Below, in pieces: positions 36,263-49,793 of a stretch of 59,597 nt of DNA. The DNA is from Pseudomonadota bacterium (GTDB lineage Bacteria > Pseudomonadota > Gammaproteobacteria > Burkholderiales > Rhodocyclaceae), in contig JAJXVG010000002.1 in NCBI GenBank assembly GCA_021782315.1, forward strand, positions 1-59,597, read 5' to 3'. Within the stretch, counting starts at the first letter, position 1. Each line of letters opens with the position of its first letter. Position numbers and translations under genes: made by a program. The notes below the pieces were generated by a model. The model saw only the letters and a program-made list of their open reading frames with translations. It made no database searches and was not told the DNA's origin.

Positions 36263-39200
36263 ATGAGCGACTTGCCAAATGCCCCGCCAAAGCAACATGT
36301 CATAAAAATTCGTCGTGACTACAACACTTGGGTAGCCAACGAAACGCTCGAAGACTATGCCCTACGCTTTACGCCGCGTAGCTTTCGCAAATGGTCGGAA
36401 ATGCGTGTCGCCAACACGGCGTTTGGCGCCGCTTCATTTTTGGTTCTGGAAGCGGTTGGCGCGACCATGCTCATTCAGGCCGGGTTTTTTAATGCCTTCT
36501 GGGCCATCCTTGCCACCGGCCTGATCATTTTCCTGATTGGCCTGCCGGTAAGCGTCACGGCTGCACGACACGGTCTTGACATGGATCTGCTGACGCGGGG
36601 GGCCGGCTTTGGCTATATCGGCTCGACAATTACCTCGCTGATCTACGCCAGCTTCACCTTCATTTTCTTTGCGCTCGAAGCAGCCATCATGGCCTATGCG
36701 CTTGAGCTCGCCTTTCATATTCCGCCAGCCTGGGGCTATCTGATCTGTGCCCTCAGTGTCATTCCGCTGGTCATACATGGCGTCACCGTCATCAGCAAAC
36801 TACAGGCCTGGACCCAGCCACTATGGATTTTTCTTCTCGTCCTACCCTACGCCTTTCTGTTTCTGGAAGACCCGCAAGCCTTATCGGGCCTCTGGCAGTA
36901 CGGCGGCGAACGAGGTATTGGTGCAGGATTTAATCCTCATCTGTTCGCCGGAGCGCTGACGCTCGGCATCGCCTTGGTCACACAGATGGCCGAACAGGTC
37001 GATTACCTGCGTTTCATGCCGGAAAAGAACCAGACCAACACCCGTCGTTGGTGGCTGGCCGTCATCATCGGCGGGCCGGGCTGGGTGGTGCCCGGCGTTC
37101 TCAAGATGCTCGGGGGAGCCCTGCTCGCCTGGCTCGTGCTGCGCAACGGCATATCGGCCGAGAAGGCGGTCGATCCCAACCAGATGTACCTGATCGGCTT
37201 TTCGCACGTCTTCGACAACACAACGCTGGCCATTGCCGCAACGGCACTGTTCGTCGTTGTCTCGCAGCTCAAGATCAACGTCACCAACGCCTACGCCGGC
37301 TCGCTGGCCTGGTCGAATTTCTTTTCCCGGCTGACGCACAGCCATCCCGGTCGCGTCGTCTGGGTGATTTTCAATACGCTGATCGCGCTATTGCTCATGG
37401 AGCTCGATGTCTTCCAGGCGCTCGGCCAGGTGCTCGGGCTCTACTCGAACATCGCTATTTCGTGGATGGCGGCGGTCGTCGCCGACCTCGTCATCAACAA
37501 GCCGCTCGGCCTGTCGCCGCCGGGGCTGGAGTTCAAGCGCAGCCATCTGTATGACATCAATCCGGTTGGGGTCGGTGCAATGGCCATCGCCTCGCTGCTC
37601 TCGATAGCGACTTTCGTCGGCTTGTTCGGCGAAGGTCCGCAACCCTATGCGCCCTTCGTTGCGCTGGCGGCTGCCTTCGTTATCTCGCCGCTGATTGCGT
37701 GGCGTACGGGCGGCCGCTACTACCTCTTCCGCCCCAAGGAGGATTCCACAGTCAAGCGGGAAAAATGCTCAATTTGCGAAAGAGAATACGAAGGCGAGGA
37801 CATGGCTTATTGCCCGGCCTATCAGGGTGCGATCTGCTCGCTGTGCTGCACGCTCGATGCACGCTGCCACGATCTGTGCAAACCACAGGCCAGCCTCGCC
37901 GCACAGTGGAATGCCGTGCTCCGGCGCATCCTGCCCAAGGCGGCGCTACCCTACCTCGACACCGGCCTCGGCCATTACCTGCTGCTGATGACCGGCATCG
38001 TACCGATCCTGGCACTGATTCTCGGTGTGCTCTATACCCATGAACTGCTCACCCTGGGTACGCCGGAACCGGCCGTGGTCGCCCGCCTGCAGGACAGTTT
38101 CATCAAGACCTTTGCCGCATTGCTCATGCTGTCCGGCGTCATCGCCTGGTGGATGGTGCTGACGCAGGAAAGCCGACGCGTCGCGCAGGAGGAATCGAAC
38201 CGCCAGACGCAACTGCTCATTCAGGAAATCGAATCGCACCAGCGCACCGACGAAGCGCTGCAAAAAGCCCGCGTCGTCGCCGAGCAGGCCAACCAGGCGA
38301 AAAGCCGCTACATCACGGCGATCAGCCACGAACTGCGGACACCCTTGAACAGCATCCTCGGCTACGCCCAGATCCTCGCCGCCGACGAAGACCTGCCGCC
38401 CAACCGTGCACAGGCCGTCAGCGTCATTCGCAAATCCGGCGACCACCTGCTGTCGGTCATCGAAGGCACGCTCGACATCGCCCGCATCGAGGGCGGCAAG
38501 CTGACGCTCGACGTCAAGGCCATGGACTTCCCCGAACTCATGCAGCAGATCGTCGGCATGTTCGAACTGCAGGCGCGCAACAAGGGGCTGGGCTTCGACT
38601 ACCGGCCGCTCGGCGAACTGCCGGCGGTCGTTCGCGCCGACCAAAAACGCCTGCGCCAGATACTGATCAACGTCTTGGGCAACGCCGTCAAATTCACCTT
38701 GCGCGGCGGCATCACCTTCGGCATCGAATGTCGGCGCGATATGGCCATCTTCGAAATCCGCGATACCGGCCCCGGCATCCCGGCCGAGGACATGCAGCGC
38801 ATCTTCGAACCCTTCACGCGCGGCAACAGCGTGCAGGCCGGCGGCAGCGGCGTCGGCCTGGCGATCGCCCGCATGCTGACCGACCTCATGGGCGGCGAAA
38901 TGCAGGTATCGAGCACGCCGGGCGAGGGCACACTGTTCCGCATCCGCCTCTTCCTGCCCTCCGTGCATTCGGCGCAGGCGGCGCGGGAACTGCCCAGACT
39001 CAACCGCATCGGCTACGTCGGCGTGCGGCGGCGCATTCTCGTCGTCGATAATGAAAAGGTCGACCGCGACCTGCTACAGAACGTCCTCGAACCGCTCGGC
39101 TTCGTCGTCGAGCAGGCTGCCAGCGGCTACGAATGCCTCGCCGCCGCGCCGCGTTTCGCGCCGCACCTCATTTTCATGGACCTCGGCATGCCCGGCATCG

Positions 39201-39658
39201 ACGGCTGGGACACCATCCGCCGCCTGCGTCAGCAGGGCCACAACGAGGCCGCTATCGCCATCCTCTCGGCCAATGCCTACGACAAGATGCTGGATAACGA
39301 TGTCGGCATTCAGCCCGAGGACTTCATCGTCAAGCCGCTCAAGGTCGACGAACTGCTCGCCTGGCTGGGCCGCAAGCTGGACCTCGAATGGGTAACGGCC
39401 GATGCACCGGCCACCATTGCTCCCGCCGCACCGGCCGACCCACTGCCTCTGCTGCCGCCCGACGAAACCGAACTGGCCGCGCTCGACGAATTGATCAACC
39501 TGGGCTACCTGCGCGGCATCCTCAACAAGCTTGCCGAAATCGAACGCCTCGACGCCAGCCACGGCGAATTCGTCCGCGTCCTGCGCGATCTTGCGCGACA
39601 ATTCCAGTTCGATGCAATGAAGGAAATTCTCAGGAAGATGCGCGATGCCGTCCGTTGA
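36263..39658 (+). CDS. NCS1-type permease fused to hybrid histidine kinase
   Basis: A 1131-residue transporter-kinase fusion. Residues about 20-490 form a cytosine/allantoin-type NCS1 permease with about 12 helices. Next is a Cys-rich module (about 500-545, CSICEREYEG...CSLCC...CHDLC), two more helices (about 575-625), HisKA with SHELRTP (His about 688), HATPase with DTGPGIP and GSGVGLA, a receiver (Asp about 973 in FMDLGMPGIDG) and a C-terminal helical segment (about 1060-1131). The permease part probably acts as the sensor, as in the SLC5-fused kinases CbrA and CrbS. The next gene, overlapping by 14 bases, is its likely regulator, and urea uptake and urease genes follow, so urea or a nucleobase/ureide is the likely ligand. 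Confidence 0.9.
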   Translation: MSDLPNAPPKQHVIKIRRDYNTWVANETLEDYALRFTPRSFRKWSEMRVANTAFGAASFLVLEAVGATMLIQAGFFNAFWAILATGLIIFLIGLPVSVTAARHGLDMDLLTRGAGFGYIGSTITSLIYASFTFIFFALEAAIMAYALELAFHIPPAWGYLICALSVIPLVIHGVTVISKLQAWTQPLWIFLLVLPYAFLFLEDPQALSGLWQYGGERGIGAGFNPHLFAGALTLGIALVTQMAEQVDYLRFMPEKNQTNTRRWWLAVIIGGPGWVVPGVLKMLGGALLAWLVLRNGISAEKAVDPNQMYLIGFSHVFDNTTLAIAATALFVVVSQLKINVTNAYAGSLAWSNFFSRLTHSHPGRVVWVIFNTLIALLLMELDVFQALGQVLGLYSNIAISWMAAVVADLVINKPLGLSPPGLEFKRSHLYDINPVGVGAMAIASLLSIATFVGLFGEGPQPYAPFVALAAAFVISPLIAWRTGGRYYLFRPKEDSTVKREKCSICEREYEGEDMAYCPAYQGAICSLCCTLDARCHDLCKPQASLAAQWNAVLRRILPKAALPYLDTGLGHYLLLMTGIVPILALILGVLYTHELLTLGTPEPAVVARLQDSFIKTFAALLMLSGVIAWWMVLTQESRRVAQEESNRQTQLLIQEIESHQRTDEALQKARVVAEQANQAKSRYITAISHELRTPLNSILGYAQILAADEDLPPNRAQAVSVIRKSGDHLLSVIEGTLDIARIEGGKLTLDVKAMDFPELMQQIVGMFELQARNKGLGFDYRPLGELPAVVRADQKRLRQILINVLGNAVKFTLRGGITFGIECRRDMAIFEIRDTGPGIPAEDMQRIFEPFTRGNSVQAGGSGVGLAIARMLTDLMGGEMQVSSTPGEGTLFRIRLFLPSVHSAQAARELPRLNRIGYVGVRRRILVVDNEKVDRDLLQNVLEPLGFVVEQAASGYECLAAAPRFAPHLIFMDLGMPGIDGWDTIRRLRQQGHNEAAIAILSANAYDKMLDNDVGIQPEDFIVKPLKVDELLAWLGRKLDLEWVTADAPATIAPAAPADPLPLLPPDETELAALDELINLGYLRGILNKLAEIERLDASHGEFVRVLRDLARQFQFDAMKEILRKMRDAVR

Positions 39659-40571
39659 CCGGAACATTTCCGACATCGTCCTGATCGTGGACGATGTGCC
39701 GGAAAACCTCTCCCTACTGCACGATGCCCTCGACGAAGCCGGCTACACCGTGCTCGTCGCAACGCACGGCGAGGCTGCGCTGCAACGTGCCCGGCAGAGC
39801 TTGCCCGACGTCATCCTGCTCGACGCACTGATGCCCGGCATGGACGGTTTCGAGGTGGCCCGCCGCCTGAAGGCCGAATTCTCGACGCAGCATATTCCCA
39901 TCGTCTTCATGACCGGTCTGACCGAAACCGAGCATGTCATCGCCGCCTTCGCCGCCGGCGGCGCCGATTACGTCACCAAGCCGATCCGCCCGCCCGAAGT
40001 GCTGGCCCGCATCTCCGCCCACATGACCAACGCCCGGCAGATGAAGCAGGCGCGCAGCGCCCTCGACGCCTTCGGCCAGGCCACCGTCGCCGTGCGCATC
40101 GCCGACAGCAAGATCGTCTGGCAGACGCCGCTTGCCCGCGGCCTGCTCAACGCCTATTTCGCCAATCCGGAAAGCGTCGCACCGGAGGAACTGCTGACCT
40201 GGATCGCCGCCGCCCTGCGCGCTCGCGCTGATGGCCGCGATGTGCCGTCACTGCTCATCGCCGAAGGCAACAGGCGCTTGCTCGCCTCCTTCCACGACCA
40301 GACCGGCGACGACGAATGGCTCGTCGTGCTGCACGAGGAAAACGACGCCTCTGCCGTCGAATCGCTGGTCGCCGCCTTCCGCCTGACCCAGCGCGAGGCC
40401 GAAGTCCTCTATTGGGTGGTGCAAGGGAAGACCAGCAACGACATCGGCGAAATCCTCGGCAACAGCCCGCGCACGGTCAACAAGCATCTCGAACACATCT
40501 TTGAAAAACTTGGCGTTGAAACCCGCACGGCCGCGGCCAATCTGGCCATGAGCAAGATGCGCGGCAACTGA
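39645..40571 (+). CDS. LuxR-family response regulator
   Basis: A 308-residue protein: receiver domain (about 10-130; Asp in LLDALMPGMDG, Lys in TKPI), a linker of about 100 residues with a PAS-like look (AFGQATVAVRIADSKIVWQTP), and a C-terminal LuxR helix-turn-helix (about 242-305; LTQREAEVLYWVVQGKTSNDIGEILGNSPRTVNKHL). Starts within the end of the permease-kinase, with AGGAAG seven bases upstream. Likely receives phosphate from that kinase and activates the urt and ure promoters, where a shared 21-bp motif is found. Confidence 0.92.
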   Translation: MPSVDRNISDIVLIVDDVPENLSLLHDALDEAGYTVLVATHGEAALQRARQSLPDVILLDALMPGMDGFEVARRLKAEFSTQHIPIVFMTGLTETEHVIAAFAAGGADYVTKPIRPPEVLARISAHMTNARQMKQARSALDAFGQATVAVRIADSKIVWQTPLARGLLNAYFANPESVAPEELLTWIAAALRARADGRDVPSLLIAEGNRRLLASFHDQTGDDEWLVVLHEENDASAVESLVAAFRLTQREAEVLYWVVQGKTSNDIGEILGNSPRTVNKHLEHIFEKLGVETRTAAANLAMSKMRGN

Positions 40572-40635: not shown

Positions 40636-40656
40636 TACGCAATCTAACGTATTTCT
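40636..40656 (+). promoter_or_regulatory. Repeated 21-bp motif, urtA promoter copy
   Basis: Reads TACGCAATCT followed by AACGTATTTCT. Near-identical copies lie before urtB and ureD. The outer TACG and CGTA form an inverted repeat, as expected for a LuxR-type dimer. A -10-like CGTAATCT begins 16 bases after it (40673-40680), which puts the motif centre near -41, the class II activator position. Confidence 0.7.
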
Positions 40657-40734
40657 AGCCAAGTACCCCGGTCGTAATCTGGCACTGCCCTGCAACAACG
40701 CAGTTTGACCAGACACCCAAACCGAGGAGCTTCC

Positions 40735-41997
40735 ATGAGCAATCGTCGTAATTTCATCAAGGCCGCCGTTCTCGCCGCCGCCCTGTCATCCATCGGCATG
40801 GCCGCCCATGCCGCCGACACCATCAAGGTTGGCGTGCTGCATTCCCTGTCAGGCACCATGGCCATTTCCGAGACCGCGCTCAAGGAAACCGTGCTGATGA
40901 CCATCGAGGAAATCAATAAGGCTGGCGGCGTGATGGGCAAGAAGCTCGAGCCGGTCGTCGTCGACCCGGCTTCCAACTGGCCGCTGTTCGCCGAAAAGGC
41001 CCGCCAGTTGCTGACCAAGGACAAGGTTGCCGTCACCTTCGGCTGCTGGACCTCGGTGTCGCGCAAGTCGGTGCTGCCGGTCTACAAGGAACTGAACGGC
41101 CTGCTCTTCTATCCCGTTCAGTACGAAGGCGAAGAGCTCGAAAAGAACGTCTTCTACACCGGCGCCGCGCCCAATCAGCAAGCCATTCCGGCTGTCGAAT
41201 ACCTGATGTCCAAGGACGGCGGCGAAGCCAAGCGCTTCGTTCTCCTCGGTACCGACTACGTTTATCCGCGCACCACCAACAAGATCCTGCGCGCCTTCCT
41301 GAAGTCCAAGGGCGTTGCCGATGCCGATATCATGGAAGACTACACACCGTTCGGCCACAGCGATTACCAGACCATCATCGCCAAGATCAAGAAGTTCGCC
41401 TCGGAAGGCAAAAAAACGGCCGTCGTGTCGACCATCAACGGCGACTCCAACGTGCCCTTCTACAAGGAACTAGGCAATGCCGGCCTCAAGGCGACCGATG
41501 TGCCGGTCGTCGCCTTCTCGGTCGGCGAAGAGGAACTGCGCGGCGTCGATACCAAGCCGCTGGTCGGCCACCTGGCGTCGTGGAACTACTTCATGTCGCT
41601 CAAGAACCCGGAAAACGACAAGTTCGTCAAGATGTACCGCGACTGGGCCAAGAAGGTCAAGCTGCCAAACGCCGACAAGGTCGTCACCAACGATCCGATG
41701 GAAGCCACCTACATCGGCATCCACATGTGGAAGCAGGCCGTCGAGAAGGCCAAGTCCACCGATACCGACAAGGTAATTGCCGCCATGGCCGGTCAGACCT
41801 TCAAGGCACCGAGCGGCATCGTTTCCAAGATGGACGAAAAGAACCATCATCTGCACAAGTCGGTATTCATCGGCGAAATCAAGGCCGACGGCCAGTTCAA
41901 CGTCGTCTGGAAAACGCCAGGCCCGATCAGGGCGCAGCCATGGAGCCCGTTCATCGCCGGCAACGACAAGAAGAAGGACGAGCCGGAAGTGAAGTAA
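40735..41997 (+). CDS. urtA: Urea ABC transporter, substrate-binding protein
   Basis: A 420-residue periplasmic binding protein for urea. The signal NRRNFIKAA is a twin-arginine motif, cut near AHA-ADTIK. The mature protein is of the branched-chain-amino-acid-binding type (GVLHSLSGTMAISE, FGCWTSVSRKSVLPV, YPVQYEGEE), which distinguishes UrtA. ATG 40735 follows GAGGAG. A hairpin terminator follows it, so urtA can be made in excess over the membrane parts. Confidence 0.97.
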   Translation: MSNRRNFIKAAVLAAALSSIGMAAHAADTIKVGVLHSLSGTMAISETALKETVLMTIEEINKAGGVMGKKLEPVVVDPASNWPLFAEKARQLLTKDKVAVTFGCWTSVSRKSVLPVYKELNGLLFYPVQYEGEELEKNVFYTGAAPNQQAIPAVEYLMSKDGGEAKRFVLLGTDYVYPRTTNKILRAFLKSKGVADADIMEDYTPFGHSDYQTIIAKIKKFASEGKKTAVVSTINGDSNVPFYKELGNAGLKATDVPVVAFSVGEEELRGVDTKPLVGHLASWNYFMSLKNPENDKFVKMYRDWAKKVKLPNADKVVTNDPMEATYIGIHMWKQAVEKAKSTDTDKVIAAMAGQTFKAPSGIVSKMDEKNHHLHKSVFIGEIKADGQFNVVWKTPGPIRAQPWSPFIAGNDKKKDEPEVK

Positions 41998-42023
41998 TCC
42001 GGATCGATTGTCAGTCGCAAACG

Positions 42024-42043
42024 ACGGGGGCTTCGGCCCCCGT
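42024..42043 (+). terminator. Rho-independent terminator after urtA
   Basis: An 8-bp GC-rich stem with TTCG loop (ACGGGGGC / GCCCCCGT) followed by TT. It lies 27 bases after the urtA stop and before a second promoter region, so urtA and urtBCDE are at least partly separate transcripts. Confidence 0.8.
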
Positions 42044-42160
42044 TTAGCCATAAACGAGACAACACCATGAACCGCAAAGGTAAATCCTTCGGATTTCGCC
42101 CGGCTTCCCGGTTGACCGCGGAAATATGGCCTGTTCATTGCCGGCGGCCCGCTACCAAGC

Positions 42161-42181
42161 TACGCAATTCATCGTATTTCT
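42161..42181 (+). promoter_or_regulatory. Repeated 21-bp motif, urtB promoter copy
   Basis: Reads TACGCAATTC followed by ATCGTATTTCT, 17 of 21 identical to the urtA copy. A -10-like CGTAAGCT (42198-42205) starts exactly 16 bases after it, the same distance as at urtA. Predicted transcription start about 42212, 29 bases before the urtB ATG. Confidence 0.7.
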
Positions 42182-42240
42182 GATCTCCGCTCGCCCCCGT
42201 AAGCTGTCCTTGCACTGCACAAATTGCGGACGGAACCCTG

Positions 42241-43818
42241 ATGAAAAAAACCCTTATAACTTTATTGCTCTGCCTTGGCTCCCTGTCGGCGCACGCGGCG
42301 CTCGACCCGGCGCAGGTACGCCAGCTGGCGGCCGAGGACTCAAGCGACAAGGTGGCGGCGATTCGGCAACTGACCCAGACCGCCGACCCGGACGCAGTCC
42401 GCGTTCTCAAGGCGATGGCCGAGGACAGCCTGTTCCTGGCTGGCGACCAAGTCGTCATCATTGAAGGCGACAAGGCTTTCGATGGCGCCACCGGCGCAGC
42501 GCTCAAGATGCCGGCCAACCCCGAGTCGCCAACGGTCAATAACCGCATCCGCGGCGAACTGGCCAGCGCACTGGCCGCGCTGAGATTGTTCGATGCCGAT
42601 GCCAGCGTCCGCCTCGCCTCGGCCCAGAAGCTGCAAAGCCGGGTCACGCCGGAAATGGCGCCGTTGCTGGCGCGCGCGCTGGAAAAAGAGACCGACGCCC
42701 AGATCAGGGCACTGCTCGCTCTCGCCCACGCCCAGGCCAACCTCGCCGACTCTGACCCGGCCGCCCGCTTGGCCGCGGTCAAGGCGCTGGCCGAAACCTC
42801 CTCGCCGGCCATCAAGAGCGTCTTGCTGCCGCTCACGGAAAAAACCGCTGAGCCGGACGACAAGGTTCGTCACGAAGCGATTGCCGCGGTGAAGGCCATC
42901 AACAGCCGGCTGACCATCGCCGAGAACGTCGGCCGCGCCTTCTCCGGCCTGTCGCTTGGCAGCATCCTGCTGCTCGGCGCTCTGGGGCTGGCCATCACCT
43001 ACGGCGTCATGGGCATCATCAACATGGCGCACGGCGAACTGCTGATGGTCGGCGCCTACGCCACCTACGGCGTGCAGATGCTGTTCCGCGCCTATTTCCC
43101 GAACGCCATCGACTGGTATCTGCCGGCCGCCATCCCCGTCGCCTTCTTTGTCGCGGCGCTGGTCGGCGTGCTCATGGAACGCACGGTGATCCGCTGGCTC
43201 TACGGCCGCACTCTGGAAACCCTACTCGCCACCTGGGGCCTTTCGCTGGTCCTGATCCAGTCGGCCCGCGTGCTGTTCGGCGCGCAGAACGTCGAAGTCT
43301 CGAACCCGAGCTGGATGTCGGGCGGGATCGAAGTGATGCCCAACCTTATCCTGCCGTGGAACCGCATCATCATCGTCGGCTTCGCGATGTTCGTCCTCTT
43401 CCTCGTCTGGGTGCTGATGAACAAAACGCGCCTCGGCATGTTCATCCGCGCCGTGACGCAGAACCGCCCGATGGCCGGTTGCGTCGGTGTGCCGACGTCG
43501 CGCATCGACACCATGGCCTTCGCGCTGGGTGCCGGCATCGCAGGCCTGGGCGGCGTCGCCCTGTCGCAGATTGCCAACGTCGGCCCGGACATGGGCCAGG
43601 GCTACATCGTCGATTCCTTTATGGTGGTGGTCGTCGGCGGCGTCGGGCAACTCGCCGGTGCTGTCTGGGCGGCGCTCGGTCTGGGCATCTTCAGCAAGTT
43701 GCTCGAAGGCTGGGCCGGGGCGGTTATCGCCAAGATCAGCATCCTCGTCTGCATCATCATCTTCATCCAGAAGCGTCCGCAGGGCATCTTCGCCCTCAAG
43801 GGTCGCTTCGTCGAGTAA
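42241..43818 (+). CDS. urtB: Urea ABC transporter permease UrtB
   Basis: A 525-residue inner-membrane permease. A signal-like N-terminus and about 200 residues of helical repeats (HEAT-like: SSDKVAAIRQLTQ, DSDPAARLAAVKALAE) come before the LivH-type membrane domain (about 225-525; GVMGIINMAHGELLMVGAY). This N-terminal extension is typical of UrtB and probably lies outside the membrane domain. It has its own promoter region. First gene of urtBCDE. Confidence 0.96.
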   Translation: MKKTLITLLLCLGSLSAHAALDPAQVRQLAAEDSSDKVAAIRQLTQTADPDAVRVLKAMAEDSLFLAGDQVVIIEGDKAFDGATGAALKMPANPESPTVNNRIRGELASALAALRLFDADASVRLASAQKLQSRVTPEMAPLLARALEKETDAQIRALLALAHAQANLADSDPAARLAAVKALAETSSPAIKSVLLPLTEKTAEPDDKVRHEAIAAVKAINSRLTIAENVGRAFSGLSLGSILLLGALGLAITYGVMGIINMAHGELLMVGAYATYGVQMLFRAYFPNAIDWYLPAAIPVAFFVAALVGVLMERTVIRWLYGRTLETLLATWGLSLVLIQSARVLFGAQNVEVSNPSWMSGGIEVMPNLILPWNRIIIVGFAMFVLFLVWVLMNKTRLGMFIRAVTQNRPMAGCVGVPTSRIDTMAFALGAGIAGLGGVALSQIANVGPDMGQGYIVDSFMVVVVGGVGQLAGAVWAALGLGIFSKLLEGWAGAVIAKISILVCIIIFIQKRPQGIFALKGRFVE

Positions 43819-43827
43819 GGCTGAACC

Positions 43828-44943
43828 ATGCACAAATCTCTCACCCTTCGTGTCCTGTCCTCGCTGGACAAGAAAAGCTGGCTGGCACTGGGCGTCTTCC
43901 TCGCCCTCGCGCTGGTCGTCGTCCCCGTCCTCCACCTCGACTTCCCGGAAGACAGCGCCCTGCATGTTTCGACCTACACCATCACGCTGATCGGCAAGAT
44001 CATGTGCTACGCGCTGGTCGCCGTAGCCATGGACCTGATCTGGGGCTACGGCGGTATCTTGTCGCTCGGCCACGGCCTCTTTTTCGCACTCGGCGGCTAC
44101 GCCTTCGGCATGTACCTGATGCGCCAGATCGGCCGCGACGGCAGCTATGGCGCCGACCTGCCGGACTTCATGGTCTTCCTAGACTGGAAGGAATTGCCGT
44201 GGTTCTGGGTCGGCAGCGACGGCTTCGGCTGGGTGGCTTTCATGGTCATCGCCGCACCGGCTGTAGTCGCTTTCGTCTTCGGCTACTTCGCCTTCCGCTC
44301 GCGGATCAAGGGCGTCTATTTCTCGATCATCACCCAGGCCCTGACCTACGCCGCCATGCTGCTCTTCTTCCGGAACGAAACCGGCTTCGGCGGCAACAAC
44401 GGTTTCACCGACTTCAAGCGCGTGCTGGGCTACAGCATCACCTCGCCGGAAACCCGCCTCGTGCTGTTCGGCCTGACCGCCGTGATGCTCGCCGCAACGC
44501 TGGTCTTCTCCGCCTGGCTGGTCAAATCCAAGTTCGGCCGCGTCCTGACTGCCATCCGCGATGCAGAATCCCGCGTCATGTTCATCGGCTACAACCCGCT
44601 CTGGTACAAGCTGACCATCTGGATCATCTCGGCGGTGCTGTGCGCCATTGCCGGCGCGCTCTACGTGCCGCAGGTCGGCATCATCAACCCCTCCGAAATG
44701 AGCCCCGGAAACGCCATCGAAATCGCCATATGGGTCGCCGTCGGCGGGCGCGGCACGCTGATTGGCCCGATCATCGGCGCCTTCGTGGTCAATCTGGCCA
44801 AGAGCTGGTTCACGGTCAGCTTCCCCGAATACTGGCTGTTCTTCCTCGGCCTCCTGTTCATCGTCGTGACGCTGATGCTGCCGCAAGGCCTGGTCGGCCT
44901 GTGGAAGAAATTGCTGGCCGGAAAAGGAGACGCAGCATGCTGA
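43828..44943 (+). CDS. urtC: Urea ABC transporter permease UrtC
   Basis: A 371-residue LivM-type inner-membrane permease with about 9-10 helices, pairing with UrtB to form the channel. Characteristic stretches: MDLIWGYGGILSLGHGLFFALGGY near the second helix, and EIAIWVAVGGRGTLIGPIIGAF near the end. It starts 9 bases after urtB and overlaps urtD by 7 bases. Confidence 0.96.
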   Translation: MHKSLTLRVLSSLDKKSWLALGVFLALALVVVPVLHLDFPEDSALHVSTYTITLIGKIMCYALVAVAMDLIWGYGGILSLGHGLFFALGGYAFGMYLMRQIGRDGSYGADLPDFMVFLDWKELPWFWVGSDGFGWVAFMVIAAPAVVAFVFGYFAFRSRIKGVYFSIITQALTYAAMLLFFRNETGFGGNNGFTDFKRVLGYSITSPETRLVLFGLTAVMLAATLVFSAWLVKSKFGRVLTAIRDAESRVMFIGYNPLWYKLTIWIISAVLCAIAGALYVPQVGIINPSEMSPGNAIEIAIWVAVGGRGTLIGPIIGAFVVNLAKSWFTVSFPEYWLFFLGLLFIVVTLMLPQGLVGLWKKLLAGKGDAAC

Positions 44944-45773
44944 ATACCGTCAATATTTTTGAGGACGACCGCCCGGAAGGCAGCGACGGCGCCGACCAGA
45001 TGGGCCACTTGGTCACCGGCGAGCTCGACCTGTCGCACGGCGTCGTGCTCTACCTGGAAGATATCACCGTCAGTTTTGACGGGTTCAAGGCACTGAACAA
45101 TCTGAATCTAGAAATCAACGCCGGCGAACTCCGCTGCATCATCGGCCCCAACGGTGCCGGCAAGACAACGATGATGGACGTCATCACCGGCAAGACCCGC
45201 CCCGATTCCGGCAAAGCCTTCTTCGGCCAGTCAATCGACCTGACCCGCCTGACCGAACCGGAAATTGCCCACGTCGGCATCGGCCGCAAGTTCCAGAAAC
45301 CGACCATCTTCGAGCAGCACACGGTGTTCGAAAACCTCGAACTGGCCATGAAGACCGACAAGCGCGTCTGGAAAAGCCTGATGGCCAGGCTGGCCGGCGA
45401 CGAGCGCGACAAGATCGCCGAAACCTTGCGCCTGATCCGCCTCGACGGCGAAGCCGACCACCAGGCCGGCCTGCTCTCGCATGGCCAGAAACAATGGCTG
45501 GAAATCGGCATGCTGCTGATGCAGGAACCGAAGTTACTGCTGCTCGACGAGCCGGTCGCCGGCATGACCGACGACGAAACCATGCGCACCGCAGAGCTAT
45601 TCGTCTCGCTGGCCGGCAAGCATTCACTGGTCGTCGTTGAGCACGACATGGCTTTCGTCGAAAAGCTCGGCGGGCTGGTAACCGTGCTCCACGAAGGCTC
45701 GGTGCTGGCCGAAGGCGATCTCGCCACCGTACAGAATGACCAGCGCGTCATTGAAGTTTATCTGGGGCGTTAA
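44937..45773 (+). CDS. urtD: Urea ABC transporter ATP-binding protein UrtD
   Basis: A 278-residue LivG-type ATPase. Walker A GPNGAGKTT, signature LLSHGQKQW (a variant of LSGGQ typical for UrtD), Walker B LLLLDEPVAGM and the H-loop VVEHDM are all present. The first 35 residues, before YLEDITVSF, are a non-conserved acidic extension. ATG 44937, with AAGGAG seven bases upstream, lies inside the end of urtC. Confidence 0.96.
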   Translation: MLNTVNIFEDDRPEGSDGADQMGHLVTGELDLSHGVVLYLEDITVSFDGFKALNNLNLEINAGELRCIIGPNGAGKTTMMDVITGKTRPDSGKAFFGQSIDLTRLTEPEIAHVGIGRKFQKPTIFEQHTVFENLELAMKTDKRVWKSLMARLAGDERDKIAETLRLIRLDGEADHQAGLLSHGQKQWLEIGMLLMQEPKLLLLDEPVAGMTDDETMRTAELFVSLAGKHSLVVVEHDMAFVEKLGGLVTVLHEGSVLAEGDLATVQNDQRVIEVYLGR

Positions 45774-45779
45774 GAATCC

Positions 45780-46472
45780 ATGCTTACCATCGAAAACCTC
45801 AATCAGGCCTACGGCGGCAGCCATATCCTGCGTGGCCTCAGCTTCGAAGTGAAGACCGGCGAAGTCACCACCCTTCTCGGCCGTAACGGCGTCGGCAAGA
45901 CGACCCTGCTCAAGTCGCTGATGGGTCTGGTCAAGACCCAATCCGGCTCGATCACCTTCGACGGCAAGGACATCACCCACCTGCCACCACACGAACGCGT
46001 CAAGGCCGGCATCGGCTTCGTGCCGCAAGGCCGCGAGATCTTCCCGCGCCTGAGCGTCGAGGAAAACCTGCTGATGGGCCTCGCCACCAAGCCCGGCAGC
46101 ACGCCAATCCCGCAACGCATTTTCGACATGTTCCCGGTCTTGAAGCAGATGATGCACCGCCGCGGCGGCGACCTCTCCGGCGGTCAGCAACAGCAACTCG
46201 CCATCGGCCGCGCCCTGGCCATGGGGCCGAAGCTGCTCATCCTCGACGAACCGACCGAAGGCATCCAGCCCTCGATCATCAAGGACATCGAACGCGCCAT
46301 CCGCATGCTGGCCGAAACCGGCGAAATGGCGATTCTTCTCGTCGAACAATACTACGACTTCGCTGAGTCCCTGGCCGACCAGTACCTGCTCATGGAGCGT
46401 GGTGAATTGATCATGCGCGGCAGAGGGGAAACCATGGCGCAGGATGGGGTGCGGGAGGCGCTGGCGGTTTGA
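45780..46472 (+). CDS. urtE: Urea ABC transporter ATP-binding protein UrtE
   Basis: A 230-residue LivF-type ATPase that pairs with UrtD. Walker A GRNGVGKTT, signature DLSGGQQQQLAIGRAL, Walker B LLILDEPTEGIQP and H-loop LLVEQYY are present. Starts six bases after urtD. The last gene of the transporter operon; the urease genes follow after 124 bases that hold a further copy of the shared promoter motif. Confidence 0.96.
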   Translation: MLTIENLNQAYGGSHILRGLSFEVKTGEVTTLLGRNGVGKTTLLKSLMGLVKTQSGSITFDGKDITHLPPHERVKAGIGFVPQGREIFPRLSVEENLLMGLATKPGSTPIPQRIFDMFPVLKQMMHRRGGDLSGGQQQQLAIGRALAMGPKLLILDEPTEGIQPSIIKDIERAIRMLAETGEMAILLVEQYYDFAESLADQYLLMERGELIMRGRGETMAQDGVREALAV

Positions 46473-46544
46473 CTGATCCGGAACGAATTGAGCGGCCAGA
46501 TCGATACGACTTCGAAATCTGCTTCTTTTGCGTTGGCTGAGCCA

Positions 46545-46565
46545 TGCGCATTCCTGCGTATTTCC
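46545..46565 (+). promoter_or_regulatory. Repeated 21-bp motif, ureD promoter copy
   Basis: Reads TGCGCATTCC followed by TGCGTATTTCC, a weaker match than the two urt copies; 14 of 21 positions are identical in all three. GATAAT (46585-46590) starts 19 bases after it, so the spacing is similar but not equal to that at urtA and urtB (16 bases to CGTAA). A start of transcription near 46597, at or next to the ureD ATG, is predicted. Confidence 0.6.
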
Positions 46566-46580
46566 CGCCGCCTTGACTTT

Positions 46581-46595
46581 CCCGGATAATCCGGG
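46581..46595. promoter_or_regulatory. Perfect 15-bp palindrome touching the ureD start
   Basis: CCCGGAT-A-ATCCGGG, seven-base arms around one base, one base before the ureD ATG at 46597 and overlapping the -10-like GATAAT. It could be an operator for a second regulator, or an RNA hairpin affecting ureD translation if transcription begins further upstream. Confidence 0.45.
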
Positions 46596-46596
46596 C

Positions 46597-47463
46597 ATGA
46601 CCTCGCGCCTTCCTGTATCGCAGACTGAGCATTTGCCGAGTTGGCATGCCGAGTTGCATCTTGGCTTTGCCCTTGCCGGCGAACGAACGGTGCTGCGCGA
46701 AAACCGGCATCGGGGGCCGTTGCGCGTGCAGAAGGCGCTTTATCCGGAAGGCGATGCGGTCTGTCAGGCCATTTTTCTGCACCCACCTTCGGGTATTGCC
46801 GGTGGTGATCAATTGGCGATTTCGGTCGAGGTCGGCGCAGGCGCCCATGCTCAACTGACGACGCCGGGCGCTGGAAAGTGGTATCGCAGTGCTGGTGCCG
46901 AAGCTGCGCAGGGCTTGGCTTTCACGGTGGGCGAGAGCGCCACGCTGGAATGGCTGCCGCAGGAAACGATTATTTTCGACGGTGCGCGTGCGCGCATGGA
47001 AACCCGAGTAGAGCTGGCTGCCGACAGCCGTTATATCGGCTGGGACATTCTCTGCCTTGGGCGGGCTGCTGCCGGTGAGCGTTTTGAAAACGGCCGTTTT
47101 GATCTCTTTTTTCGGGTTGACCGTGGGAATGCCCCGATCTGGATTGAGCGCGGCGGTTTCGACGGCAACGACACGATGTTGAGCAGCCCGGTCGGCTGGG
47201 CTGGTGCCACGGTGTGCGGCACCTTGCTGTGCGTCTTTCCCGAATTGCCTCAGCAAGCTGTTGCTCTCCTTGAAGCCTGCCGCAAAGTCATCGCCGTCGA
47301 TGGCGCCAATCATGGCCTGAGCGCCTTGCCCGGCATCCTCGTCGCCCGTTACCTCGGCAACAGCAGCGAGGCCGCCCGCTTGTGGTTTGCCGCGCTGTGG
47401 GAAGTCCTGCGACCGGCCTGCTGCGGCCGTCCGGCCGTTATCCCCCGCATCTGGAATACCTGA
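46597..47463 (+). CDS. ureD: Urease accessory protein UreD
   Basis: A 288-residue protein that joins UreF and UreG on apo-urease for nickel insertion. Recognised by AQLTTPGAGKWYRS, WLPQETIIFDGA and a C-terminal WEVLRP. ATG 46597 gives the usual length. No ribosome site is visible and the promoter -10 may directly precede it, so the message may be leaderless. First gene of ureDABCEFG. Confidence 0.95.
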   Translation: MTSRLPVSQTEHLPSWHAELHLGFALAGERTVLRENRHRGPLRVQKALYPEGDAVCQAIFLHPPSGIAGGDQLAISVEVGAGAHAQLTTPGAGKWYRSAGAEAAQGLAFTVGESATLEWLPQETIIFDGARARMETRVELAADSRYIGWDILCLGRAAAGERFENGRFDLFFRVDRGNAPIWIERGGFDGNDTMLSSPVGWAGATVCGTLLCVFPELPQQAVALLEACRKVIAVDGANHGLSALPGILVARYLGNSSEAARLWFAALWEVLRPACCGRPAVIPRIWNT

Positions 47464-48090: not shown

Positions 48091-49793
48091 GCACGAAGAT
48101 TTCCCGCCAGGCCTATGCCGAAATGTTCGGCCCGACGACCGGCGATCGTCTGCGCCTGGCCGATACCGAACTGATCATCGAGGTCGAGCGGGACTACACG
48201 ATCCATGGCGAGGAAGTGAAGTTCGGTGGTGGCAAGGTCATCCGTGACGGCATGGGCCAGGGCCAGCGCATCTCGGCTGAATCCGTCGATACCGTGATCA
48301 CCAACGCGCTGATCGTCGATGCCGTGACCGGCATCGTCAAGGCTGACATCGGCTTGAAGGATGGCCGCATCGCAACCATCGGCAAGGCCGGCAACCCGGA
48401 CATCCAGCCGGGCGTGACCATCGTTATCGGCCCCGGCACCGAAGTCATTGCCGGCGAAGGCATGATCGTCACCGCCGGCGGCATCGACAGCCACATCCAT
48501 TTCATCTGCCCGCAGCAGATCGACGAAGCCCTGTATTCGGGCGTGACGACAATGATCGGCGGCGGCACCGGGCCAGCCACCGGCACCTTTGCCACCACTT
48601 GCACGCCGGGGCCGTGGCACATCCACCGCATGCTGGAAGCTGCCGACGCCTTGCCGATGAACCTCGGTTTCCTCGGCAAGGGTAACGCCAGCCTGCCGGA
48701 AGCCTTGCGCGAGCAGGTCGCGGCCGGTGCCATGGGGCTCAAGCTGCACGAAGACTGGGGCACGACACCGTCCGCCATCGACTGCTGCCTGACGGTGGCC
48801 GACGAGATGGACGTCCAGGTCGCCATCCACTCCGACACCCTCAACGAATCCGGCTTCGTCGAAGCCACCTTGGGTGCCTTCAAGGGCCGCACCATCCACA
48901 CCTTCCATACCGAAGGCGCCGGCGGCGGCCACGCCCCGGACATCATCAAGGCGGTCGGGCTGTCCAACGTCTTGCCCAGTTCGACCAATCCGACCATGCC
49001 GTACACGGTGAATACCATCGACGAGCATCTCGACATGCTGATGGTTTGCCACCACCTCGACCCGAGCATCGCCGAGGACATCGCCTTCGCCGAATCGCGC
49101 ATCCGCCGCGAAACCATCGCTGCCGAAGACATCCTGCACGACCTCGGCGCCTTTTCCATGATGTCGTCGGATTCGCAGGCAATGGGCCGCGTCGGCGAAG
49201 TCATCATCCGCACCTGGCAGGCGGCGCACAAGATGAAGCTGCAACGCGGCGCCCTGCCCGAAGACTGTGCCCGTCACGACAATTTCCGCATCAAACGCTA
49301 CATCGCCAAATACACCATCAACCCGGCGCTGACCCATGGCATCGCCCACACAGTCGGCTCCATCGAAGTCGGCAAGCTGGCCGATCTGGTGCTATGGAAA
49401 CCGGCCTTCTTCGGCGTCAAACCATCGCTGATCCTGAAAGGCGGCATGATCGCCGCCGCCGCCATGGGCGACCCCAACGCCTCGATCCCGACGCCACAGC
49501 CGGTACATTACCGGCCCATGTTCGGCGGCTTCGGCAAAGCGCTGAAAACCTCGGTAACCTTTGTTTCACAGGCGGCGTTGCAGAATCCTGCGGTCAACGC
49601 CCTGAAACTGCAAAAACCGCTGATCGCCGTCTCCGGCACGCGCGCACTCAGGAAATCCGACATGGTGCACAACGGTGCGACGCCGGAAATCACCGTCGAT
49701 CCAGAAACTTACGTGGTCAAGGCCGATGGCGTGCATCTGGTCTGCCAACCGGCCACCGAATTGCCGCTGGCGCAGCGTTACTTCCTTTTCTGA
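48087..49793 (+). CDS. ureC: Urease alpha subunit (catalytic)
   Basis: A 568-residue nickel enzyme that hydrolyses urea to ammonia and carbamate. Active-site residues are intact: His 136 and 138 (DSHIHF), carbamylated Lys 219 and His 221 (GLKLHEDWG), His 248 (AIHSDT), His 274 region (EGAGGGH), mobile-flap Cys/His 321-322 (VCHH) and Asp 362 (SDSQAMG). Full-length, translationally coupled to ureB. Confidence 0.99.

Follow-up and report, generated by a model that had tools for sequence, protein, structure and literature searches.

We analyzed a 59,597-nucleotide stretch of DNA from a Pseudomonadota bacterium of the family Rhodocyclaceae (GenBank assembly GCA_021782315.1, contig JAJXVG010000002.1, positions 1 to 59,597; hereafter, the window) that encodes a urea ABC transporter (urtA and urtBCDE), a urease cluster that starts with ureD, and an adjacent two-component system consisting of a hybrid sensor kinase and a response regulator. 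The response regulator (39645-40571) very probably uses as its operator a motif that is repeated upstream of urtA, urtB and ureD, and it is predicted to activate transcription from about position -43.5. An earlier note on this DNA, made from the letters of the sequence, had proposed that the repeated motif is the probable binding site of the adjacent regulator; this proposal is supported by comparative analysis, given that the site tracks the regulator gene and that the adjacent protein combines a receiver with a GerE domain.

The three 21-base-pair (bp) copies of the motif are located on the forward strand at 40636-40656 (urtA), 42161-42181 (urtB) and 46545-46565 (ureD). All three match the previously proposed consensus, TRCGCAWT-N4-CGTATTTCY, without a mismatch, and a recount reproduced the 14 of 21 positions that are identical in the three sites. 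A search of the window with up to three mismatches allowed yielded a single extra match, at position 2400 and with three mismatches, in line with the claim that there is no further full copy. From base composition only, the 21-mer pattern is expected 1.7e-5 times in the window and 9.5e-4 times in the genome (both strands), values that overstate the significance because the pattern was derived from these same sites. The many unrelated matches that the earlier note had named as a possible refutation did not materialize: pattern searches of the whole genome (3.39 Mb in 291 contigs, about 89% complete) found only three exact sites, all within the window, and the next best match has two mismatches; additional sites could be missing due to the incompleteness and fragmentation of the assembly.

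The conserved unit is shorter than the 21-mer, namely, a 16-bp inverted repeat, TACG-N8-CGTA, which consists of two heptamers 2 bp apart. The heptamers of NarL operators have the consensus TACYYMT and can occur in the same 7-2-7 arrangement. The TACG...CGTA symmetry described earlier holds at urtA and urtB but is poorer at ureD, where the site is TGCG...CGTA in the window (and starts with TTCG in two relatives). Similarly, the TCY at the end of the proposed motif is present in the window but is not kept in relatives, in which TTTGC, TTCCG and TTCCC are seen, so that this terminal part is better read as a piece of a weak -35 region. The genome contains 14 other TACG-N8-CGTA palindromes, and none of the 13 examined is flanked on either side by an A....T hexamer (A second, T last) at 23 or 24 bases. 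All 13 sit inside open frames of at least 120 codons, which is a weak argument because the urtB operator is inside an open frame as well.

All three operators in the window are followed by a -10-like hexamer at a nearly constant distance. The assertion that such hexamers start exactly 16 bases past the urtA and urtB motifs is true for CGTAATCT and CGTAAGCT; -10 elements had been assigned to these two promoters only, and the ureD hexamer GATAAT, which is one base further out, had been missed. The center near -41 that was given previously is valid for the 21-mer, whereas the 16-bp symmetric core is predicted to be centered at about -43.5. When the hexamer is placed at -12 to -7, the palindrome is predicted to occupy about -51 to -36, and the bases at -35 that follow the three palindromes (TTTCTA, TTTCTG and TTTCCC) are far from TTGACA.

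We then compared these promoters within the genus, in a set of 60 genomes that includes the one analyzed here. The regulator is encoded in 32 of the 60 genomes and urtA in 33, the sole difference being G037, which is 83% complete. The site pattern with at most one mismatch was detected in all 32 genomes with the regulator and in 6 of the 28 without it, the urtA-bearing G037 among them; among the remaining five, three have a broken core, and G010 and G036 keep the core with no -10 at the respective distance. Conservation in relatives, a check suggested in the earlier note, was evident: sites are located before 31 of the 33 urtA genes, 18 of 18 urtB genes and 17 of 17 ureD genes identified by protein searches (those for urtB and ureD covered 36 of the 60 genomes), and four further urtB genomes, fetched for motif matches, also carry the site. 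The 31 urtA sites include 28 promoters, that of the window among them, that were picked out of 30 by the core TACGCAAT-N4-CGTATT (two were dropped), along with those of G005, G012 and G014. The invariance of the core bases in the 28 picked promoters is by construction because the promoters were selected on these bases; A12 and the TAATCT hexamer, which were not used in picking, are invariant in all 28, and the spacer drifts, with 13 of its 16 columns below 1 bit and three at 1.1-1.4 bits. The urtB hexamer lies at 23 bases in all genus cases except G024 (22 bases). The ureD sites of the 17 genomes have TGCG or TTCG as the first half and are each followed, after 23 or 24 bases, by a -10-like hexamer; the site in G016 is poorer. 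The sites are also kept where the genes lie far apart, as in G046 (regulator at 2.96, urtA at 1.40 and urtB at 3.15 Mb of one chromosome).

Nine genus matches away from the starts of urtA, urtB and ureD were inspected (those in G003, G019 and G032 and the matches outside the genus are not among the nine). The matches in G005 and G044 have a -10 at 23, those in G010 and G036 have the core without a -10, and L257-L261 do not contain the T[AG]CG-N8-CGTA core. The extra operator of G005 (L245, position 4630), with TAAGCT at 23, precedes a second pair of kinase and NarL-type regulator genes between urtA and urtB (domains read from translations). G044 carries a duplication of the urtB promoter segment (L248, positions 9686 and 10941), the two copies of which flank a TerC-like gene, also read from translation. 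Such events could be invoked to explain the three promoters of the window as products of recent duplication that are alike without sharing a regulator. This explanation is extremely improbable: the bases between the operator and the -10 differ among the three window promoters, most spacer bases drift over the 28 genomes while the -10 stays constant, and the identical palindrome recurs in other classes of bacteria.

For comparison with other genera, named genomes were scanned with the regulator protein, and the best 80 loci of a longer list were retained, of which 59 (L050-L108, 1.11 Mb) show similarity outside the receiver as well, at 41-81% identity. These loci come from alpha-, beta- and gammaproteobacteria and from a metagenome-assembled genome of Verrucomicrobiaceae, and most of them also encode the kinase and Urt or Ure proteins. 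TACG-N8-CGTA occurs 47 times in the 59 loci, compared with only 1-6 occurrences (mean 2.6) for each other spacer of 2-16 bases, that is, inverted heptamers 2 bp apart are preferred above all other spacers in this range. Forty of the 47 palindromes, spread over 38 of the 59 loci, precede a scored gene start by no more than 450 bases, and where a urtA homolog could be scored, a strict site is present within 500 bases upstream in 36 of 41 loci. Toward urtA, the A....T hexamer is found at 23 bases in 25 of 37 sites and at 24 in 11 (at either distance in 34 of 37), and every other offset from 15 to 35 has it in 0-4 sites. Thus, the operator lies at a fixed distance from the -10 and overlaps or touches the -35, the layout of class II activation at sigma-70 promoters. 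Toward the kinase gene, the hexamer peaks at 23 as well (14 of 25), suggesting that a single palindrome may be shared by two divergent promoters.

It is quite improbable that a different protein of the cell binds the palindrome, be it another NarL-type response regulator or a general nitrogen regulator, with the neighboring two-component system a mere companion in the cluster. The genome encodes plenty of other receiver proteins, with 137 matches to the query at E-values up to 0.001, and LuxR-type proteins often have similar half-sites. Nevertheless, the site follows this particular regulator gene across genera and plasmids. In 21 control loci that match the regulator mainly in the receiver (L109-L129, 270 kb), the N8 palindrome occurs 0 times, where the rate in the family would give about 11 and the background about 0.6. 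Furthermore, in a test set of 40 genomes from other genera of the same order, 12 carry this urtA; 9 of the 12 have no match to the regulator, and the site is absent from the approximately 560 bases upstream of urtA in all 9. In G066 and G087, this urtA has no site; instead, one is found at a second urt cluster that adjoins the regulator gene, and TAATCT starts exactly 23 bases past that site.

Both the test set of 40 genomes and a set of seven plasmid loci, each from a different genus and picked from 482 regulator-bearing records, were examined once the rule had been formulated. Every plasmid locus contains a strict site close to urtA or to the kinase gene; the A....T hexamer at 23 is on the urtA side in four of them and on the kinase side in the other three. 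These loci include Sinorhizobium meliloti pSymB and a Klebsiella pneumoniae plasmid with a formamidase gene after urtE. A relative of the regulator is present on 332 Klebsiella plasmid records, with 41.7% identity among the matches listed; in the one that was inspected (L280, K. pneumoniae plasmid CP052485.1), the regulator is encoded beside urtABCDE and the formamidase, and the operator is present.

Several observations weigh against the regulator being an activator that acts through this operator. Within the genus, the site is missing at the urtA genes of G006 and G054. In 21 of the 59 loci from other genera, no strict site is located 450 bases or less from the scored starts, and five of these 21 hold a scorable urtA: L061 has its strict site farther out (about 1.2 kb upstream), one-mismatch variants are present in L086 and L105, and L106 and L095 have no convincing site. 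Only the outer TACG/CGTA is constant, the inner three pairs being symmetric in 35, 22 and 23 of the 47 palindromes and the central pair in 6, and the counts over the 59 loci are not phylogenetically independent, with several close relatives within Bradyrhizobium and Methylobacterium. In the same order, G062 has the regulator and the site but no -10 at 23 or 24. Two further genomes encode the regulator without this urtA: in G095, a urtA-like gene is preceded by a site at a distance of 1.7 kb, with TAAACT 24 bases past the site, and in G083, the urt-ure cluster has no site in its upstream region. Finally, the -10 of ureD is near the consensus and fits less well with the notion of promoters that need help.

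The last point bears on the possibility that the regulator binds but represses, or both activates and represses, which we consider improbable. A dimer on an operator that is predicted to end at about -36 could hinder the polymerase at some promoters. However, the -35 bases far from TTGACA and the poor -10 elements of urtA and urtB are features of promoters that need help, and the distance of 23 or 24 bases between the operator and the -10 that is kept in nearly all sites toward urtA would be needless for a simple roadblock. Recruitment of the polymerase by the bound dimer, that is, activation rather than repression, is therefore probable, because the operator touches a poor -35 and the -10 elements of urtA and urtB are poor as well.

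The proposed regulator has the domain architecture of the NarL/FixJ (LuxR-type) family, with matches to Response_reg (1.8e-27) and GerE (4.1e-17), and its gene overlaps the kinase gene by 14 bases (Table 1). The N-terminal domain of the kinase has a model-predicted fold that is closest to NCS1 transporters (CodB, Mhp1). At the sequence level, this sensor domain showed no similarity to a Pfam transporter family at E-values up to 10 and no profile match to the Protein Data Bank, NCS1 transporters included, at E-values up to 1, and no fitting Pfam family was found for the transporter-like N-terminus together with the Cys-rich stretch (36263-37852). No SLC5-type symporter domain was detected in the kinase; neither was a STAC-like match in the Pfam scans, although the presence of a STAC model in Pfam was not checked. 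Among the NCBIfam models listed, the 25 best for each of the two proteins (kinase and regulator) all scored below their cut-offs.

In the mechanism that we infer, the kinase would sense a signal, most likely urea or a related small amide, via its NCS1-fold N-terminal domain and would phosphorylate the adjacent regulator through a phosphorelay. The phosphorylated NarL/LuxR-type dimer would then bind the 16-bp TACG-N8-CGTA operator and recruit sigma-70 RNA polymerase, in the class II mode, at urtA, urtBCDE and the ureD-led urease genes.

Table 1. Genes and predicted regulatory elements of the urea uptake and urease region, in positions of the window
Feature	Position	Strand	Description
Hybrid sensor kinase	36263..39658	+	N-terminal NCS1-transporter-like domain (~residues 30-490, predicted fold), Cys-rich stretch (502-529), HisKA, HATPase_c, receiver
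Response regulator	39645..40571	+	Receiver 12-123, ~120 amino acids without Pfam match, GerE/LuxR helix-turn-helix 247-301
Operator 1 (urtA), predicted	40636..40651	+	TACGCAATCTAACGTA; 21-mer extends to 40656
urtA -10 hexamer, predicted	40675..40680	+	TAATCT; 23 bases past operator 1
Second conserved element at urtA	40686..40694	+	TGCCCTGCA; relatives mostly TGCACTGCA or TGCACCGCA; 34 bases past operator 1
urtA	40735..41997	+	Urea ABC transporter binding protein
Operator 2 (urtB), predicted	42161..42176	+	TACGCAATTCATCGTA; 21-mer extends to 42181
urtB -10 hexamer, predicted	42200..42205	+	TAAGCT; 23 bases past operator 2
Second conserved element at urtB	42211..42219	+	TGCACTGCA; 34 bases past operator 2
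urtB	42241..43818	+	First gene of urtBCDE
urtC, urtD, urtE	43828..46472	+	
Operator 3 (ureD), predicted	46545..46560	+	TGCGCATTCCTGCGTA, poorer palindrome; 21-mer extends to 46565
ureD -10 hexamer, predicted	46585..46590	+	GATAAT; 24 bases past operator 3, 6 bases ahead of annotated ATG
ureD	46597..47463	+	First gene of urease cluster

In addition to the operator and the -10, the urtA and urtB promoters of the genus share a second element, TGC(A/C)C(T/C)GCA, at about -1 to +8, near the predicted transcription start; the ureD promoter does not have this element. At urtB, variants were observed in G014 (TTCACCGCA) and in G024 (TGCGCTGCA), in which the entire stretch is displaced by one base. The pattern TGCRSYGCA has 117 matches in L050-L108, 20 of these within 120 bases of an operator site, and in several mostly alphaproteobacterial loci (rhizobial, Bradyrhizobium), a similar element is located between the operator and the -10. 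Sigma-54 promoters have a GG-to-GC spacing of N10. The TGGCAC...TGCA sequence past the urtA -10 was considered as such a promoter and rejected, given that it has GG-N9-GC and that many relatives have GAC. No Rfam match to a riboswitch or another RNA element was found upstream of urtA, urtB or ureD at E-values up to 1.

The distance from the ureD operator to the ATG is 35-36 bases in 17 genomes (15 as aligned, G026 by its ATG reading and G020 from a separate inspection of the locus). Given this short distance and a -10 that ends 6 bases before the ATG, a leaderless ureD messenger RNA is predicted, unless a later start codon is used. Within the urease cluster, the Rfam family RF02514 (5' ureB small RNA) matches 48239-48528 on the minus strand, antisense to ureC, with 120.7 bits against a cut-off of 40; this match may merely reflect the conserved urease coding sequence.

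Urea is a major nitrogen source, and we found no regulator described for this urt-ure arrangement. Collectively, the data make it fairly likely that the system represents an undescribed, widespread class of transceptor two-component systems, in which a kinase with an NCS1 fold and a Cys-rich linker, together with a LuxR-type regulator, controls the uptake of urea and short-chain amides and urease in Proteobacteria, probably in some Verrucomicrobia (one metagenome-assembled genome, with a one-mismatch site) and on hundreds of Klebsiella plasmids, via one near-universal 16-bp operator that is able to serve two divergent promoters. The fixed ends of the operator and the fixed distance to the -10 provide a simple rule for predicting the targets of the regulator in the genomes that carry it, and this rule extends to soil symbionts (S. 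meliloti pSymB) and to the Klebsiella plasmids with the urt-formamidase operon. Furthermore, the findings point to a transporter-like sensor with a directly searchable ligand. The kind of site, a NarL-like 7-2-7, is already known; in the accessible portions of the open-access literature, which includes few subscription journals, we found no article dealing with this operator or with a urea kinase of the NCS1 type and no description of this system together with its operator.

The accessible text on Dechloromonas aromatica RCB (PMC2907700) contains a gene list with a kinase of 1131 amino acids, a CheY-like protein of 308 and UrtA of 420, in that order; the lengths of the Urt and Ure proteins are equal or nearly equal to those in the window, but other genes lie between UrtA and UrtB, and the genes are listed there without a regulatory site. 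Similarly, urtABCDE-formamidase clusters are described in the available part of an article about amidases encoded on Klebsiella and Pseudomonas plasmids (PMC13209695), without mention there of this kinase. Judging from the excerpts at hand (PMC5715377), CrbS/CrbR resembles the present system in consisting of a hybrid kinase with a transporter-like sensor and a LuxR-type regulator that controls uptake and utilization genes through an imperfect inverted repeat. Unlike the present system, CrbS has an SLC5-type sensor, the targets are acetate genes, and the ACTU inverted repeats that are needed for activation (e.g. TACTACCATCGTCGAAT) differ in both spacing and sequence. RpuS/RpuR is another near system, but with an SLC5-type sensor and other sites, according to the available portion of its description (PMC9100948). 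In CbrA, a membrane transporter domain is likewise fused to a histidine kinase; as far as the accessible sections of the report go (PMC13022988), CbrA combines SLC5, STAC and PAS domains and has histidine as the ligand, whereas the kinase described here has an NCS1-like predicted fold and a Cys-rich stretch before the kinase domains. The closest parallels for the regulator and its operator are the NarL/FixJ systems of the 7-2-7 type, which share the combination of a receiver with a GerE helix-turn-helix domain and the two inverted TAC-type heptamers 2 bp apart; the system described here differs from these in the fixed TACG/CGTA ends, the extra middle region of about 120 amino acids in the regulator, the predicted urea and amide targets, and the putative transporter-fold kinase.

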